Below are positions 13,520 to 18,687 of a DNA stretch of 64,000 bases, in pieces; positions within the stretch are counted from its first letter, which is position 1, and each line of letters starts with the position of its first letter. The notes under the pieces are model-generated. The model searched no databases. It had not been told where the DNA came from and saw only the letters and a program-made list of their open reading frames with translations. Both the position numbers and the translations under genes were made by a program. Source of the stretch: Acidimicrobiia bacterium (GTDB lineage: Bacteria > Actinomycetota > Acidimicrobiia > Acidimicrobiales > Bin134); NCBI GenBank assembly GCA_022822905.1, contig JAJDYE010000017.1, positions 1 to 64,000 of the forward strand, written 5' to 3'.

Positions 13520-14341
13520 CTAGTCCCACTCCTCCACCGTGACCCGGTGCATGAGGCGGCGCTCCGCGTAGTCGGGGACGGCGAAGTGCTGGACGGCGCG
13601 ATTGTCCCAGAAGGCGATGGAATCGGCAGCCCAGCGGAAGCGGCACTGGAACTCGGGGGAGCGCACATGGTTCAACAAGAACGGCAACAGCACATCGCTT
13701 TCGGCCTCGGTTACCCCCACCAGGCGGGTGGTGAAGTTGCTGTTCACGAACAGGGTCCGCCGCCCGGTCTCGGGGTGGACTCGCACCACCGGTCGGATCA
13801 GCTCCGGGTACTCGGCTTGCATCGGCTCCAAGTGCTCTTTCGCGAAACCCTCGTCGATCGCCCGGGTGAGGGTGTAGGTGAGGTCGTGGGCCGCTTCGAG
13901 GCCGTCGATCAGCGCCCGCATCGGCTCTGACAGCGCCTCATAGGCCTTGTACATGTTGGCGAAACAGGTGTCGCCGCCCACCTCGGGCAACTCCACCGCT
14001 CGGAGGACGGAACCGAGCGGCGGGTTGGGCATGTAGGTGTTGTCGCTGTGCCAGCGTGCGGCCAGTCCGCCCACCGGGGCGATCTGATCGAGCACCGTGA
14101 TGGCCGGATGGGTGTCCAGCTTGGGGCCGAACGGGGCCACGTTGATGGGGCCGAATCGCTGGGCGAAGGCCAAATGCTGGTCGGGGGTGATGGGTTGGTC
14201 GCGAAAGAACACCACCAGATGGTCGAGCAGCGCCTGGCGGATGGCGGCCACCGTGGGGTTGTCGAGTTGTTCCCGCAAATCCACCCCGAAGATCTCGGCC
14301 CCGATGTCAGAGGTAAGCGGGCGGATGTCCAGGGTGGCCAC
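13520..14341 (-). CDS. TauD/TfdA-family 2-oxoglutarate/Fe(II) dioxygenase
   Basis: The 273-aa product starts at GTG 14341, four bases after the MarR stop codon. The iron-binding facial triad is visible: H98-x-D100 in RWHSDNTY and H252 in AVQHFAV. The 2-oxoglutarate-binding Arg follows in the ERRLMHRV segment, where family members have the conserved R. The N-terminal IGAEIFGVDL and the FFRDQPITPDQH blocks are typical of TauD, TfdA and related hydroxylases of sulfonates, herbicides or carnitine-like acids. Co-transcription with a MarR regulator suggests induction by an aromatic or acidic substrate, which is not identifiable here. Confidence 0.9.
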   Translation of the reverse strand: MATLDIRPLTSDIGAEIFGVDLREQLDNPTVAAIRQALLDHLVVFFRDQPITPDQHLAFAQRFGPINVAPFGPKLDTHPAITVLDQIAPVGGLAARWHSDNTYMPNPPLGSVLRAVELPEVGGDTCFANMYKAYEALSEPMRALIDGLEAAHDLTYTLTRAIDEGFAKEHLEPMQAEYPELIRPVVRVHPETGRRTLFVNSNFTTRLVGVTEAESDVLLPFLLNHVRSPEFQCRFRWAADSIAFWDNRAVQHFAVPDYAERRLMHRVTVEEWD

Positions 14342-14345
14342 CGGA

Positions 14346-14849
14346 TTACTCGTCTTGCTCGGCGAAATCTCCGGCGTCTTTTCGGAGGGTGCGGATGGCA
14401 TTGTCCAACGCGCCCAAGGTTTGAGCCGACAGGCCGGCCAGGCCGAACTCGATGTCGGCCAAAGCGTCGGCCGCCTTGGCCACCACCCGGCGTCCCTCGT
14501 CGGAAATCTCGGCCAGCACGGTGCGACGGTCATCGGCGTGGGGTACTCGTCGAACCAGCCCGTCGCGCTCAAGGCGGTCGATGGCGTTGGTGACACTGGT
14601 GGGGTGGACCATCAGTCGATTGCCCATCTTCCCCAGCGGAAGTGAGCCGCGCCGAGAGAAATGGAGCAGGGCCAGCGCCTCGAATCGGGAGAAGGTCAGG
14701 TCGAACGGGGCCAGGGCTTCATTGATCCGTCCGATCACCAGCTGGTTGGCCCGAGTGATCGACGTGGCCGCCGACATGGCATCGATAGCCCGCCATTCGT
14801 TGGCTTCCCAGTTTCGCCGGGCCTCGCTGATGGGGTCGAAAGGCAGCAT
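14346..14849 (-). CDS. MarR-family transcriptional regulator
   Basis: The 167-aa product has the winged-helix arrangement of MarR: LTFSRFEALALLHFSRRGSLPLGKMGNRLMVHPTSVTNAIDRLERDGLVRR is the HTH, followed by the wing PHADDRRTVLAEIS. The DDRR motif in the wing is diagnostic. It is the first gene of a two-gene unit with the dioxygenase and likely represses it and itself. A TAGAGT -10 hexamer (14864-14859) lies 9 nt before the ATG, so the mRNA is probably leaderless. Confidence 0.92.
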   Translation of the reverse strand: MLPFDPISEARRNWEANEWRAIDAMSAATSITRANQLVIGRINEALAPFDLTFSRFEALALLHFSRRGSLPLGKMGNRLMVHPTSVTNAIDRLERDGLVRRVPHADDRRTVLAEISDEGRRVVAKAADALADIEFGLAGLSAQTLGALDNAIRTLRKDAGDFAEQDE

Positions 14850-14926
14850 CCCACCGTCACTCTAGGTGACGACCGCTCGGCCCACCTTGGTCGGCGGGCG
14901 ATCCATCCACCAGCCTCCCCAATGGT

Positions 14927-14932
14927 TACTCT
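14927..14932 (+). promoter_or_regulatory. -10 hexamer of first ABM gene
   Basis: TACTCT fits TANNNT and lies 31 nt before the ATG of the ABM-domain gene at 14964; a GAGGAGA ribosome site follows. The same arrangement (TACGCT, 32 nt, GAGGAGA) precedes the paralogue at 16551, so the promoter was copied with the gene. No convincing -35 is visible. Confidence 0.4.
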
Positions 14933-14963
14933 GTAGCCGCTCGCCCCACCGTGAGGAGACCTC

Positions 14964-15263
14964 ATGATCGTTGTCGCCGGATCCGTTTCCGTCCCTGCTG
15001 AGAACTCTGAGGCGTTCATGTCTGCCGCTGCCGACGTCTCTGCCGCGTCGCGCACCCTGGACGGCAACATCGACTACTGCATCTCGGTGCAGTCGCCTGG
15101 CGTTTTTCGGTTTTTGGAGATATGGGATACCGAGGAAGCCATGATGGCTCAATTCGCCGCCCCCCCTTTCGGTGCGTTCCAGGCCGCAGTCAGCAAGCTG
15201 GGCATGGCCGGGATGGACGGCAAGAAATACGAAATCTCCTCAGTCGCCCCGCTGTTCGGATAG
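14964..15263 (+). CDS. Antibiotic-biosynthesis-monooxygenase (ABM) domain protein, copy 1
   Basis: The 99-aa protein has the small ferredoxin-like alpha/beta fold of the ABM/YgiN family: an MIVVAGSVSVPAE strand, a helix with A..S...DGNIDYC, then FRFLEIWDTEEAM and a C-terminal KKYEIS strand. Family members are dimeric quinol or polyketide monooxygenases acting without cofactor, or structural homologues. The ribosome site is GAGGAGA, 6 nt upstream. It has a close paralogue at 16551, on the other side of the RCC1-like gene, with about two thirds of residues identical including the entire C-terminus (MDGKKYE.SSV.PLFG). Confidence 0.8.
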   Translation: MIVVAGSVSVPAENSEAFMSAAADVSAASRTLDGNIDYCISVQSPGVFRFLEIWDTEEAMMAQFAAPPFGAFQAAVSKLGMAGMDGKKYEISSVAPLFG

Positions 15264-15285
15264 CGCGGGGGATGGCCTCTACGCG

Positions 15286-15317
15286 TTGACTTGGCCGGGG
15301 GGGGGGGGGGGTACATT
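15286..15317 (+). promoter_or_regulatory. Promoter with a 15-G tract in the spacer (candidate phase-variable promoter)
   Basis: The -35 TTGACT (15286-15291) and -10 TACATT (15312-15317) are separated by 20 nt, of which 15297-15311 is an uninterrupted run of 15 G. The -10 is 8 nt before the ATG at 15326, as in other leaderless promoters of this window. A 17-nt spacer would need G12. Slippage of a G run between -35 and -10 is the known switching mechanism of Neisseria porA. Whether the tract varies here is inference, and homopolymer sequencing or assembly error must be excluded. Confidence 0.55.
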
Positions 15318-15325
15318 GGCCTGTC

Positions 15326-16432
15326 ATGCACAAGAAGTACTTGGTAATTGTGGTCGCACTGGTCATCAGCGCAGTCGCCGCTGTCGGAGGGACAGCGGCG
15401 GCCCAAAGCTCAGGAGGCATCTCCTCCCAGGACATCGCAGCGCGCGACCAGCTCATCGCCAACCAGGAGAACCTCCTGAACACCTACCGCTGCCTGTTCA
15501 ACACCGACACAGCCGCCGTGCCCGGCGGCTGCCCTGATCCCGACACCATCACCCCCGCCGCCGCCCCCCAAAACCCCACCCAAAACGACCTCGACATCAG
15601 AGACCAACTAATCCAAAACCAAGAAGCACTCCTGAACACCTACCGCTGCCAACACAACATCGACACCCAACTCGTCCCCGGCGGCTGCCCCACAACAAAC
15701 ACCGACCCGCCCGAACCCGACAACACCGCCGCGGTCCGGTACACCGCCATCGCAGCAGGCGGTGGGCATTCGTGCGCCATCGCCGAAGACCGCACCATCA
15801 CCTGCTGGGGATTCAACAGTGATGGCCAGGCGGACGCGCCCGCAGGCGCCTACACCGCCATCGCAGCAGGCGATTGGTATTCGTGCGCCATCGCCGAAGA
15901 CCGCACCATCACCTGCTGGGGAGACAGCAGTTATGGCCGGTTGGACGCGCCCGCAGGCGCCTACACCGCCATCGCAGCAGGCGGTGGGCGTTCGTGCGCC
16001 ATCGCCGAAGACCGCACCATCACCTGCTGGGGACCCAGTGGTAATGAACGGTTGGACCCGCCCGCAGGCGCCTACACCGCCATCTCCTCAACAGGCGGTG
16101 GGTATTCGTGCGCCATCGCCGAAGACCGCACCATCACCTGCTGGGGACCCAGTGCTTATGACCAGTTTGACCCGCCCGCAGGCACCTACACCGCCATCTC
16201 AGCAGGCACTGACTATTCGTGCGCCATCGCCGAAGACCGCACCATCACCTGCTGGGGATTCAGTGGTAATGATGGCCGGTTGGACGCTCCCGCAGGCGCC
16301 TACACCGCCATCGCAGCAGGCGGTGGGCATTCGTGCGCCATCGCCGAAGACCGCACCATTACCTGCTGGGGACGCCATTTTGAAGGCCAGTTGGACGCGC
16401 CCGGAGGCACCTACACGGCAGCTCGTTCCTAG
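15326..16432 (+). CDS. Secreted RCC1-like tandem-repeat protein
   Basis: The 368-aa product has a signal peptide (residues 1-26, cleavage after AAA/Q). It then has two copies of a 30-residue Cys-containing unit (41-70 and 93-122: DQLI.NQE.LLNTYRC...DT..VPGGCP). From residue 139 come six repeats of 37-38 residues with the core SCAIAEDRTITCWG...GQ.DAPAG, plus the start of a seventh. The WG...G.. pattern is that of RCC1/beta-propeller repeats, each with two Cys. It probably folds as a surface or secreted propeller that binds a partner; no enzymatic motif is visible. Expression may be switched by the G tract in its promoter. Confidence 0.85.
   Translation: MHKKYLVIVVALVISAVAAVGGTAAAQSSGGISSQDIAARDQLIANQENLLNTYRCLFNTDTAAVPGGCPDPDTITPAAAPQNPTQNDLDIRDQLIQNQEALLNTYRCQHNIDTQLVPGGCPTTNTDPPEPDNTAAVRYTAIAAGGGHSCAIAEDRTITCWGFNSDGQADAPAGAYTAIAAGDWYSCAIAEDRTITCWGDSSYGRLDAPAGAYTAIAAGGGRSCAIAEDRTITCWGPSGNERLDPPAGAYTAISSTGGGYSCAIAEDRTITCWGPSAYDQFDPPAGTYTAISAGTDYSCAIAEDRTITCWGFSGNDGRLDAPAGAYTAIAAGGGHSCAIAEDRTITCWGRHFEGQLDAPGGTYTAARS
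15740..16411 (+). repeat. Six in-frame 111/114-bp tandem repeats
   Basis: Units begin with TACACCGCCATC at 15740, 15851, 15962, 16073, 16187 and 16301, with a partial unit at 16412, so periods are 111, 111, 111, 114, 114 and 111 bp. The first 70 bp of each unit are nearly identical, while the roughly 15 codons after CWG vary. All unit lengths are multiples of three, so unit gain or loss would keep the frame. The array codes for the RCC1-like repeats. Confidence 0.9.
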
Positions 16433-16512
16433 AGCTTAGGGGCCACAAGGCATAAGCGGGCTGCGACTGCGCAGCCCATCGGCCCGATCCCAGGATCCAG
16501 GCCTCCGGTGGC

Positions 16513-16518
16513 TACGCT
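16513..16518 (+). promoter_or_regulatory. -10 hexamer of second ABM gene
   Basis: TACGCT fits TANNNT and lies 32 nt upstream of the ATG at 16551. The surrounding sequence (GCCTCC before, GAGGAGA ribosome site after) matches the region upstream of the paralogue at 14964. Confidence 0.4.
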
Positions 16519-16550
16519 GTGAGCGCTCATAACCACTCTGAGGAGATCCC

Positions 16551-16850
16551 ATGATTGTCATTGCCGGCACCGGCTCACTTCCCCCCGAGAACACCGATGC
16601 GTTTATGGCGGCCGCCAATGAGATGGCCGCGGCGTCTCGAGCTGAAGACGGCAACATCGAGTACTGCTTCTCGGTGGAGGCACCGGGCAAGATCCGCTTC
16701 TTCGAAATCTGGGAGAGCGAAGAAGCGCTGGGCGCCCACTTCACCGTCCCCCACATCGCGGCATTCGGCGCAGCCATCAGCGAGTTGGGCATCACCGGGA
16801 TGGACGGCAAGAAGTACGAGGTTTCCTCGGTCAGCCCGCTGTTCGGATAG
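16551..16850 (+). CDS. ABM-domain protein, copy 2
   Basis: The 99-aa protein is a paralogue of the one at 14964, same length without gaps: MIVIAGTGSLPPEN at the start, DGNIEYCFSVEAPGKIRFFEIWESEEAL in the middle and GMDGKKYEVSSVSPLFG at the end. It has a GAGGAGA ribosome site. The two copies flank the RCC1-like gene on the same strand, so either the RCC1 gene was inserted between tandem duplicates or the three genes were assembled as a unit. The reaction is unknown; ABM proteins often oxidise quinols or aromatic polyketides. Confidence 0.8.
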   Translation: MIVIAGTGSLPPENTDAFMAAANEMAAASRAEDGNIEYCFSVEAPGKIRFFEIWESEEALGAHFTVPHIAAFGAAISELGITGMDGKKYEVSSVSPLFG

Positions 16851-16862
16851 GCGGTTCGCCCA

Positions 16863-16880
16863 CCCGCCGCATTCGGCGGG
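16863..16880 (+). terminator. Short GC hairpin after ABM copy 2
   Basis: CCCGCCG (16863-16869), loop CATT, CGGCGGG (16874-16880) is a perfect 7-bp stem 13 bp after the ABM stop codon and 24 bp before the next gene. There is no T run, so it is at best a weak or Rho-assisted terminator. Confidence 0.35.
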
Positions 16881-16904
16881 GCCAGAACGGGCAAACTGAA
16901 CACG

Positions 16905-17894
16905 GTGGAGGACTATTTCCAGCAGTTGGTGCGCTCTTGGCGCAGCGTCACCTCCCGAACGGTGCGCGAGGCCGTGGCCGTTTTGTTGCTGCTTATCGTG
17001 GTGTTCGGCGCGGGGTTCTCCGCGCTCTCCACCTACGCCAATCTGGTGGTGTTCAACGAGGATCGCTTTGCTGAGGAGCTCGCCGACATCTTCGACGACG
17101 AAGATGTCCACAAGGTGGTGGCGACATCTTTCACCGCCACCGCAATAGAGATGGCCGACCTGCCGGTGACACCGGCGGGCTCCGCCGGGGCACAGCAGGT
17201 GATCCAGCAGGAGATCCCGGCAGTGGTGAGCGAGCTGCTCACCGAGGAGGCCAACGACGGCCTGCTGGATCGGGCGGTGCGCCAGGCCCATGGCGATGTG
17301 CTGGCCGTTGAGGGAGGCACCTTGGTGGCCAATCCGCCGATTCGGAGCGTCGAAGTGGATTTGGGGCCGATCTTCAATCAAGCGCTGGACGAGATCGTGG
17401 CCAACGAAGAGCTGGCCTTTCTGGGCACCGTGACGCCTCCTCACGATGCCGGAGTAGTGACCGTTCTTCAACGGGCCCAGCCGGGCGATCGGTTCTGGGA
17501 ATTCCTCGGCCAGCTCCAAGACCGGCGGTCCTCCACCATCACCCTGATTCTGCTGTGCGGCATCGGGGCGCTGTTGATAGCACCGTCTCGCACTCGGGTG
17601 GTGTGGAGCATCGGCACCGGCATTGTGGCCATGGCCGGCATCTTGGGCGTGGGGATCTACGGCTCTCGGGCGCTGTTGGCCGTGCTCATCGACAACACCG
17701 ACACCGTGCGGGCGGCCCAATCGATCCACGAGGCTCTGCTGGACGACTTGGGCGGTCGACTGGTGGGCATGGCCCTCATCGGCGTGCTGATGATCGTGAT
17801 CGGCGCCGTCGCCGGCTGGCTCTGGCGCAAATTCGGCCCCACTCCCCCCGAAGAGAAGGCCCTCGCCGTGTCGGAGGCCGGCCCGGTGGTGTGA
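16905..17894 (+). CDS. Membrane protein with large extracytoplasmic domain
   Basis: The 329-aa product starts at GTG. There is one transmembrane helix near residues 22-43 (AVAVLLLLIVVFGAGFSALS), and a region of about 165 residues, predicted outside, with acidic and helical character. Three more helices lie between about 206 and 305, followed by a short charged tail. The topology of one TM, a loop domain and three TMs is seen in uncharacterised actinobacterial membrane proteins. No catalytic motif was found. It follows the ABM gene by 54 bp and may be co-transcribed. Confidence 0.7.
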   Translation: MEDYFQQLVRSWRSVTSRTVREAVAVLLLLIVVFGAGFSALSTYANLVVFNEDRFAEELADIFDDEDVHKVVATSFTATAIEMADLPVTPAGSAGAQQVIQQEIPAVVSELLTEEANDGLLDRAVRQAHGDVLAVEGGTLVANPPIRSVEVDLGPIFNQALDEIVANEELAFLGTVTPPHDAGVVTVLQRAQPGDRFWEFLGQLQDRRSSTITLILLCGIGALLIAPSRTRVVWSIGTGIVAMAGILGVGIYGSRALLAVLIDNTDTVRAAQSIHEALLDDLGGRLVGMALIGVLMIVIGAVAGWLWRKFGPTPPEEKALAVSEAGPVV

Positions 17895-17904
17895 CGCCGA
17901 GCAG

Positions 17905-18687
17905 CTACGAGCCGGTGAAGACTGCTTTGCCGGGGCCGTTTTCTAGGAAGCTGGCCACGCCGGTGTGGGCGTCTTCGGTGTCGAAGCAGGAGGCGAAGGC
18001 TTCCACCTCCACTTCTAGGGCTTCATCGAGGGGTAGGAAGTAGCCATCGAGGATGGCTTTTTTGGCCAGGGTTATCGCCGCGGGGCCTGCGGCGTAGCGG
18101 GCGGCTAGCTTCACGGCCTCGTCGTACACCTCTTCGTCGGGGTAGACGGCTGAGGCCAGTCCGATGGCCACTGCTTCGTCGGCTCGCACGTTTCGCCCGC
18201 TGTAAATCAGCTCCTTGGCTTTGGTAATACCCACCAGGCGACTCAGGCGCTGGGTGCCTCCTCCGCCGGGGATGAGGCCCAGCAAGATCTCTGGTTGGCC
18301 TAGCACAGCGCCCTTCCCCACCAGGCGGAACTCGGCTGCCATGGCCAGCTCGCATCCCCCGCCGAGGGCGTAGCCGTTGACCGCGCAGATGGTGATCTGA
18401 GGCAACTCCTCCAGCGCGCGGAATGCGTCGTTGATCCTCTGGCTCAGATCCCGGCCCCCGGCGGCATCCAACCCCGAGAACTCGTTGATGTCGGCGCCAG
18501 CGGCGAACACTTTCGGTCCACCCCAGATCACCGCCGCCCGAATGTCGGTGCGTCCGGCCAGTTCGTCGGCGGCTTGGTGCAACTCGGCCACTACCTGGGC
18601 ATTCAGTGCATTGACCTTGGGGCGGTCCAGCCGAAGGGTGGCCACTCCTTCCGCCTCACCGGTTTCAATCCGCACGAATTCGCCCAT
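17905..18687 (-). CDS. Enoyl-CoA hydratase/isomerase (crotonase family)
   Basis: The 260-aa product hydrates 2-enoyl-CoA in beta-oxidation. The oxyanion-hole segments FAAGADINEF and NGYALGGGCELA are clear. Both catalytic glutamates of true hydratases are present: E113 in GGGCELA and E133 in GQPEILLGLIPGGGGTQRL. The start at ATG 18687 (MGEFVRIE) has AAGGAG 8 nt upstream; the longer frame to 18735 has no family support. It is divergent from the acyl-CoA ligase at 18775 and both may act on the same acyl chain, though the sequence does not show the substrate. Confidence 0.93.
   Translation of the reverse strand: MGEFVRIETGEAEGVATLRLDRPKVNALNAQVVAELHQAADELAGRTDIRAAVIWGGPKVFAAGADINEFSGLDAAGGRDLSQRINDAFRALEELPQITICAVNGYALGGGCELAMAAEFRLVGKGAVLGQPEILLGLIPGGGGTQRLSRLVGITKAKELIYSGRNVRADEAVAIGLASAVYPDEEVYDEAVKLAARYAAGPAAITLAKKAILDGYFLPLDEALEVEVEAFASCFDTEDAHTGVASFLENGPGKAVFTGS

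Follow-up and report, generated by a model that had tools for sequence, protein, structure and literature searches.

A poly-G tract in a promoter spacer as a probable contingency locus upstream of a predicted secreted RCC1-like protein of Acidimicrobiia

A run of 15 G residues separates a -35-like from a -10-like element just upstream of a gene for a predicted secreted RCC1-like repeat protein in an acidimicrobiian genome (G000; 3.80 Mb in 42 contigs). It lies in what we call the window, the whole 64-kb stretch of DNA analyzed here. We consider it likely that this tract is a contingency locus in the spacer of a sigma-70-type leaderless promoter, subject to slipped-strand phase variation via spacer length in a manner similar to the porA and opc promoters of Neisseria. 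Replication slippage would add or remove G residues in the run, bringing TTGACT and TACATT closer together or further apart and changing their relative helical phase, and the shift in spacing would turn transcription of the downstream gene up or down, randomly in each cell. The locus would be one member of a set of such switches in the genus, comprising both promoter tracts and 5' coding tracts. A preliminary description of the same DNA had already proposed a phase-variable promoter; its reading of the hexamers stands, and is now joined by the recurrence of the layout, its enrichment, spacers of 15-20 nt, and length differences among close relatives, all of which are features of sequence that render the switching itself probable.

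Anatomy of the proposed promoter

The upstream region can be dissected into the following features, each obtained by direct reading:

15286-15291, forward strand: -35-like element TTGACT; TTGA followed by C, T, or A recurs 5' of the tract in relatives
15292-15311, forward strand: promoter spacer of 20 nt, TGGCC plus G15; 25 nt in the G005 orthologue
15292-15296, forward strand: TGGCC, the first part of the spacer
15297-15311, forward strand: G15 homopolymer, the proposed slippage site; same position in the paralogues on contigs C36 and C32
15312-15317, forward strand: -10-like element TACATT; TAnnnT lies directly 3' of the tract in relatives
15317/15318-15325, forward strand: gap of 8 nt between the -10-like element and the start codon, TGGCCTGTC
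15326-16432, forward strand: ORF of 368 aa, with its ATG start at 15326

The letters bear out exactly what had been described earlier, namely 15 G between the two hexamers in a 20-nt spacer that ends, with the -10-like element, 8 nt before the start, and the accompanying arithmetic that a 17-nt spacer needs G12 is likewise correct. The usual optimum for the spacer of a sigma-70 promoter is ~17-18 nt. Since the G15 spacer exceeds this by 2-3 nt, the assembled state is, by general promoter knowledge, probably low or off, and by the same token G12-G13 (a spacer of 17-18 nt) would represent the strong state. A sigma-70 consensus scan requiring a 16-18 nt spacer found no promoter at this locus, as expected if the sequenced state is indeed off. 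We infer that a leaderless mRNA would begin 5-9 nt past TACATT, within or at the end of the 8-nt gap. An Rfam search of positions 14000-18000 matched no RNA family.

Within the window, the tract is the sole run of at least 8 of any base: G/C runs of length 5 number 128, those of length 6 number 25, and those of length 7 number 2, after which the next is G15. Under a fourth-order Markov model of the window, 0.0001 runs of at least 15 are expected, against the one observed.

The predicted secreted product and its cassette

The gene and its surroundings comprise the following features:

14964-15263, forward strand: flanking gene with an ABM domain, upstream copy (Pfam search)
15267-16503, forward strand: inserted cassette of promoter, tract, and gene between the two ABM genes (boundaries approximate)
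15326-16432, forward strand: gene for the secreted RCC1-like repeat protein of 368 aa (Pfam RCC1_2, E=1.4e-36; nearest solved chains BLIP-II; propeller model)
15326-15406, forward strand: signal peptide MHKKYLVIVVALVISAVAAVGGTAAAQ (by eye, boundary approximate; helix 3-20 in the structure model)
15443-15532, forward strand: two-Cys N-terminal module RDxLIxNQExLLNTYRC..VPGGC, copy 1 (sequence comparison)
15599-15688, forward strand: two-Cys N-terminal module, copy 2 (sequence comparison)
15716-16405, forward strand: RCC1-like repeats (Pfam search)
16551-16850, forward strand: flanking gene with an ABM domain, downstream copy (Pfam search)

The RCC1 repeats pass the curated cut-off (PF13540, 123.8 bits against a cut-off of 22), and the nearest solved sequence is BLIP-II (1.3e-19). 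A single-sequence structure model of moderate confidence (pLDDT 63, pTM 0.50) shows two helices and a propeller-like domain, with which Foldseek recovers the RCC1/UVR8/ACR4 propellers at ~1e-14, yet with a TM of only 0.42-0.49 by query. The product thus has RCC1_2 repeats in common with BLIP-II and other RCC1-repeat beta-propellers; it differs from BLIP-II in its additional N-terminal two-Cys modules, and beta-lactamase inhibition is without support. From the signal-peptide-like N-terminus we infer that the protein is probably exported and may be displayed at the surface. The two-Cys module is matched by no Pfam or NCBIfam model; all 22 genus genomes compared here (one per species) contain 5-40 matches to it. 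Across the genus, the module (RDxLIxxQExLLNxYRC...VPGGC, alignment A1) precedes unrelated C-terminal domains.

Most other species of the genus, G003 and G019 among them, have the two ABM genes side by side and lack the cassette, indicating that the promoter and the gene came in jointly on one insert of ~1.24 kb. Among the genus genomes compared, the cassette is common to G005 only, which thereby furnishes the sole orthologue of the window locus. There the flanks are 94.5% identical, the tract is interrupted by T residues (G7TG7TG3T), giving a spacer of 25 nt, i.e., 5 nt more than in the window, and the gene is broken by a stop after four codons.

Recurrence of the layout before other secreted proteins

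Comparable arrangements are seen at several other loci. Within G000, a paralogue on C36 (C36:15190) is preceded by TTGATT-CGTT-G15-TACAGT and then ATG; a second, on C32, stands at a contig that begins with T-G26-TTATATT followed by GTG; and a third, on C31, shows a decayed tract, G6TG8CGGCG4, before TAGGTT. In the remaining species the layout takes the form TTGAAA-N5-G15-TATCGT followed by ATG (G008), TTGACA-N4-G11-TAAATT followed by GTG (G015), TTGAC-N2-G13/G12-TAGATAAT (G003 and G019), and TTGACA..G8/G9-TACGCT (G004/G001). In G004 the tract layout occurs twice before RTX-repeat proteins, and in G312, from another family of the class, TTGATT-N9-G11-TAGTAT precedes a secreted LRR protein. The C-terminal domains of the tract-bearing genes therefore differ, including RCC1, collagen-like (G000 C23:189224), RTX, and LRR, suggesting an association of the tract with the promoter and with secreted repeat proteins rather than with one protein family. 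The presence of the same layout before other secreted proteins, with differing run lengths, further suggests that it is probably a random on/off or dimmer switch. The idea that every paralogue carries a tract was rejected, as most paralogues in the genus are without one, and the genus scan found no TTGA/G-tract/TAnnnT site in the single-contig genomes G007 and G014.

Long G runs are also in excess of expectation. G000 has 26 G runs of at least 9; its G/C runs of at least 10 number 23 against ~5 expected under the same fourth-order model, and those of at least 15 number 9 against 0.003 expected, with four of the nine near contig ends. A genus scan for TTGA-N3-12-G8-N0-16-TAnnnT recovered 14 sites, mostly before secreted repeat proteins, against 3 for the reversed pattern, and one for G9-TAnnnT-N5-9-RTG recovered 5 against 0. 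We also collected 128 internal G tracts of at least 10 from the genus without regard to promoters. Both promoter elements flank 6 of these (mean of 0.22 and maximum of 3 in 2,000 trials with shuffled flanks; 0 in the C-strand control), and neither element is found at 113. The spacer between the hexamers measures 15-20 nt in all six flanked tracts, against 24% of the null hits. TAnnnT alone was not significantly enriched around the 128 tracts (p 0.13).

These counts bear on the possibility that the tract is real and slippery with little or no effect on expression, being a mutational by-product in a dispensable, recently inserted gene that is possibly locked off at 20 nt. Consistent with this are the restriction of the cassette to the window and G005 (with an interrupted tract and a broken gene in the latter), the decayed tract before the C31 paralogue, and the lack of tracts at most paralogues in the genus. 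However, tracts with both elements and spacers of 15-20 nt exceed chance, and they recur before different secreted genes in several species, whereas drift would not position them between hexamers; hence, we regard this explanation as unlikely. The same spacing argues against an action of the tract in RNA (with transcription starting upstream, so that the run falls in the 5' UTR and alters translation, in the manner of espR) or as a DNA G-quadruplex blocking the polymerase. A run of 15 G can in principle form a quadruplex, and the 7-G tract in the 5' UTR of espR does act after transcription (PMC11898584). However, at several loci TAnnnT follows the tract immediately and stands 5-9 nt 5' of the start codon, which fits a leaderless start downstream of the tract, and the distances between the hexamers group around the promoter optimum, making such an action quite improbable. 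A contingency tract in a promoter spacer is thus the reading we retain.

Tract-length variation between relatives

Comparison with other MAGs, which had been suggested as a check, found both tract lengths that differ between close relatives and the same layout in other species. Over 794 bp at the promoter, G004 and G001 differ by 3 substitutions and a sole indel, G8/G9, which sets the distance from TTGACA to TACGCT at 17/18 nt. Between G003 and G019 the promoter tract is G13/G12. A comparison of G000 C31 with G019 over 3,010 bp shows zero substitutions, and its three indels each fall in a repeat: G11/G9, then a CT repeat, then G12/G11. In the comparison of G000 C15 with G019, the difference G16/G12 is the only indel in 3 kb. 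Since homopolymer counts in assemblies may err by 1-2 through PCR slippage, differences of 4 or 5 bases weigh more than those of 1 or 2.

Poly-G artefacts are common, a caveat attached to the run at the outset, and several long G runs do lie at contig ends (C32 of G000 starts in G26 and C29 ends 5 nt past G21). The window tract, in contrast, is internal and has homologous sequence to either side of it, the G005 orthologue is G-rich at the same place with T interruptions, and the same layout is found in paralogues and other species. Hence, a sequencing or assembly artefact, whether Illumina two-colour poly-G or a mis-sized homopolymer, is very improbable as the source of the run, even if the exact count of 15 G may be off. 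That the tract is instead coding and switches the reading frame from an upstream start codon is scarcely credible, notwithstanding the other G000 tracts in 5' coding regions (of recombinases and of the C9/C41 secreted proteins), as its open frame has no in-frame start codon 5' of ATG 15326. Of the codons further 5', TTG 15286 is part of the -35 and, with 15 G, stands in a different frame, and the frame opened by the nearby ATG 15272 closes at the TGA within TTGACT.

Other homopolymer tracts

Several further tracts were observed in these genomes. One secreted-protein gene (L240 in G003, L243 in G019) combines two variable G tracts that are independent of each other, G13/G12 in the promoter spacer and, shortly downstream, G14/G7 in the 5' coding region. 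Two secreted-protein-like genes of G000 (L072 and L094, on C9 and C41), the latter with no Pfam match, have a C14 run directly after ATGA, and judging from the sequence these runs are likely 5' coding contingency tracts. Four tyrosine-recombinase genes of G000 carry poly-C of 13-21 around the start codon: C15:1500 (L073; Phage_integrase, 7e-12), C23:38294 (L077), C31:85893 (L085), and C38:3244 (L091). The run in the G019 orthologue of the C15 recombinase is 12, against 16 in G000. At least three of them (L073, L077, and L085) adjoin a divergent secreted-protein gene; each is a candidate for a frame-switched recombinase beside a surface gene. A methylase-like gene has G12 and a broken frame in G000 (L086, L087; C31:116475, 117799), and G11 and an open frame in G019 (L254, on C8); its frame is shifted by the G12/G11 indel of the substitution-free 3,010-bp comparison described above. 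It has no Pfam or NCBIfam match; in our reading it is similar to Type IIG/PglX enzymes in their C-terminal part. Long G tracts lie at or close to contig breaks at the start of C32, the end of C29, and the end of C35 in G000 and at the start of C47 in G003; the C32 and G003:C47 breaks both occur at the tract of one gene and its orthologue.

Relation to known switches and biological implications

In Neisseria meningitidis, porA and opc have poly-G or poly-C between -35 and -10 (van der Ende 1995 and Sarkari 1994, as cited in PMC5084427). The window locus resembles these in placing a G/C homopolymer in the promoter spacer of a gene whose product is predicted to be exported and may be at the surface, and slippage would alter the spacing. 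It differs in its phylum, its predicted leaderless start, and the presence of the same layout before several unrelated secreted repeat proteins. A closer phylogenetic precedent is HPT_37 of Cutibacterium acnes, with 5C/7C between -35 and -10, a leaderless transcript, and a twofold difference in expression (PMC4746626). Both are actinobacterial, with a homopolymer in the promoter spacer and a leaderless start (predicted for the window locus), but HPT_37 has a much shorter tract, is clade-linked rather than fast-switching, and belongs to a metabolic (ubiE-like) gene. Switching by frameshift at G tracts has been demonstrated for pglX of Streptomyces coelicolor (PMC4365076) and for the pili of Bifidobacterium breve (PMC9187656); unlike the window locus, these tracts are coding, and comparable ones occur elsewhere in G000. 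Mycobacterium tuberculosis offers actinobacterial regulatory homopolymers upstream of genes in espR and espACD, the latter being poly-A near the promoter and, unlike that in the window, outside the spacer (PMC11898584). In light of HPT_37, pglX, and the Bifidobacterium pili, the view in the preliminary description that such a switch would be unusual in an actinobacterium was overstated. The kind of switch is already known, and what is notable is its scale and setting. The literature searched contained no account of phase variation in sponge Acidimicrobiia.

As to this setting, the relatives are named as MAGs under Acidimicrobiia bacterium, uncultured Acidimicrobiales, and Candidatus Poriferisocius, and from these names their hosts are probably sponges. 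We tentatively propose, with somewhat less than even confidence, that these probably sponge-dwelling Acidimicrobiia carry a large phasome, made up of promoter spacers of variable length, tracts in the 5' coding regions of secreted repeat proteins, tyrosine recombinases switched by frame next to secreted genes, and a methylase-like gene switched in the same way. It is the scale of this phasome in uncultured Acidimicrobiia that is of interest. If it is real, some contigs broken at homopolymers, and some "pseudogenes" of these assemblies, may represent switch states and not errors. Random surface switching via promoter spacing, best known from human pathogens, would then also exist in uncultured, probably sponge-dwelling actinobacteria. 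There it could contribute to the evasion of phages or to host recognition, and each cell would present its own combination of surface and defence traits to its host or to phages.
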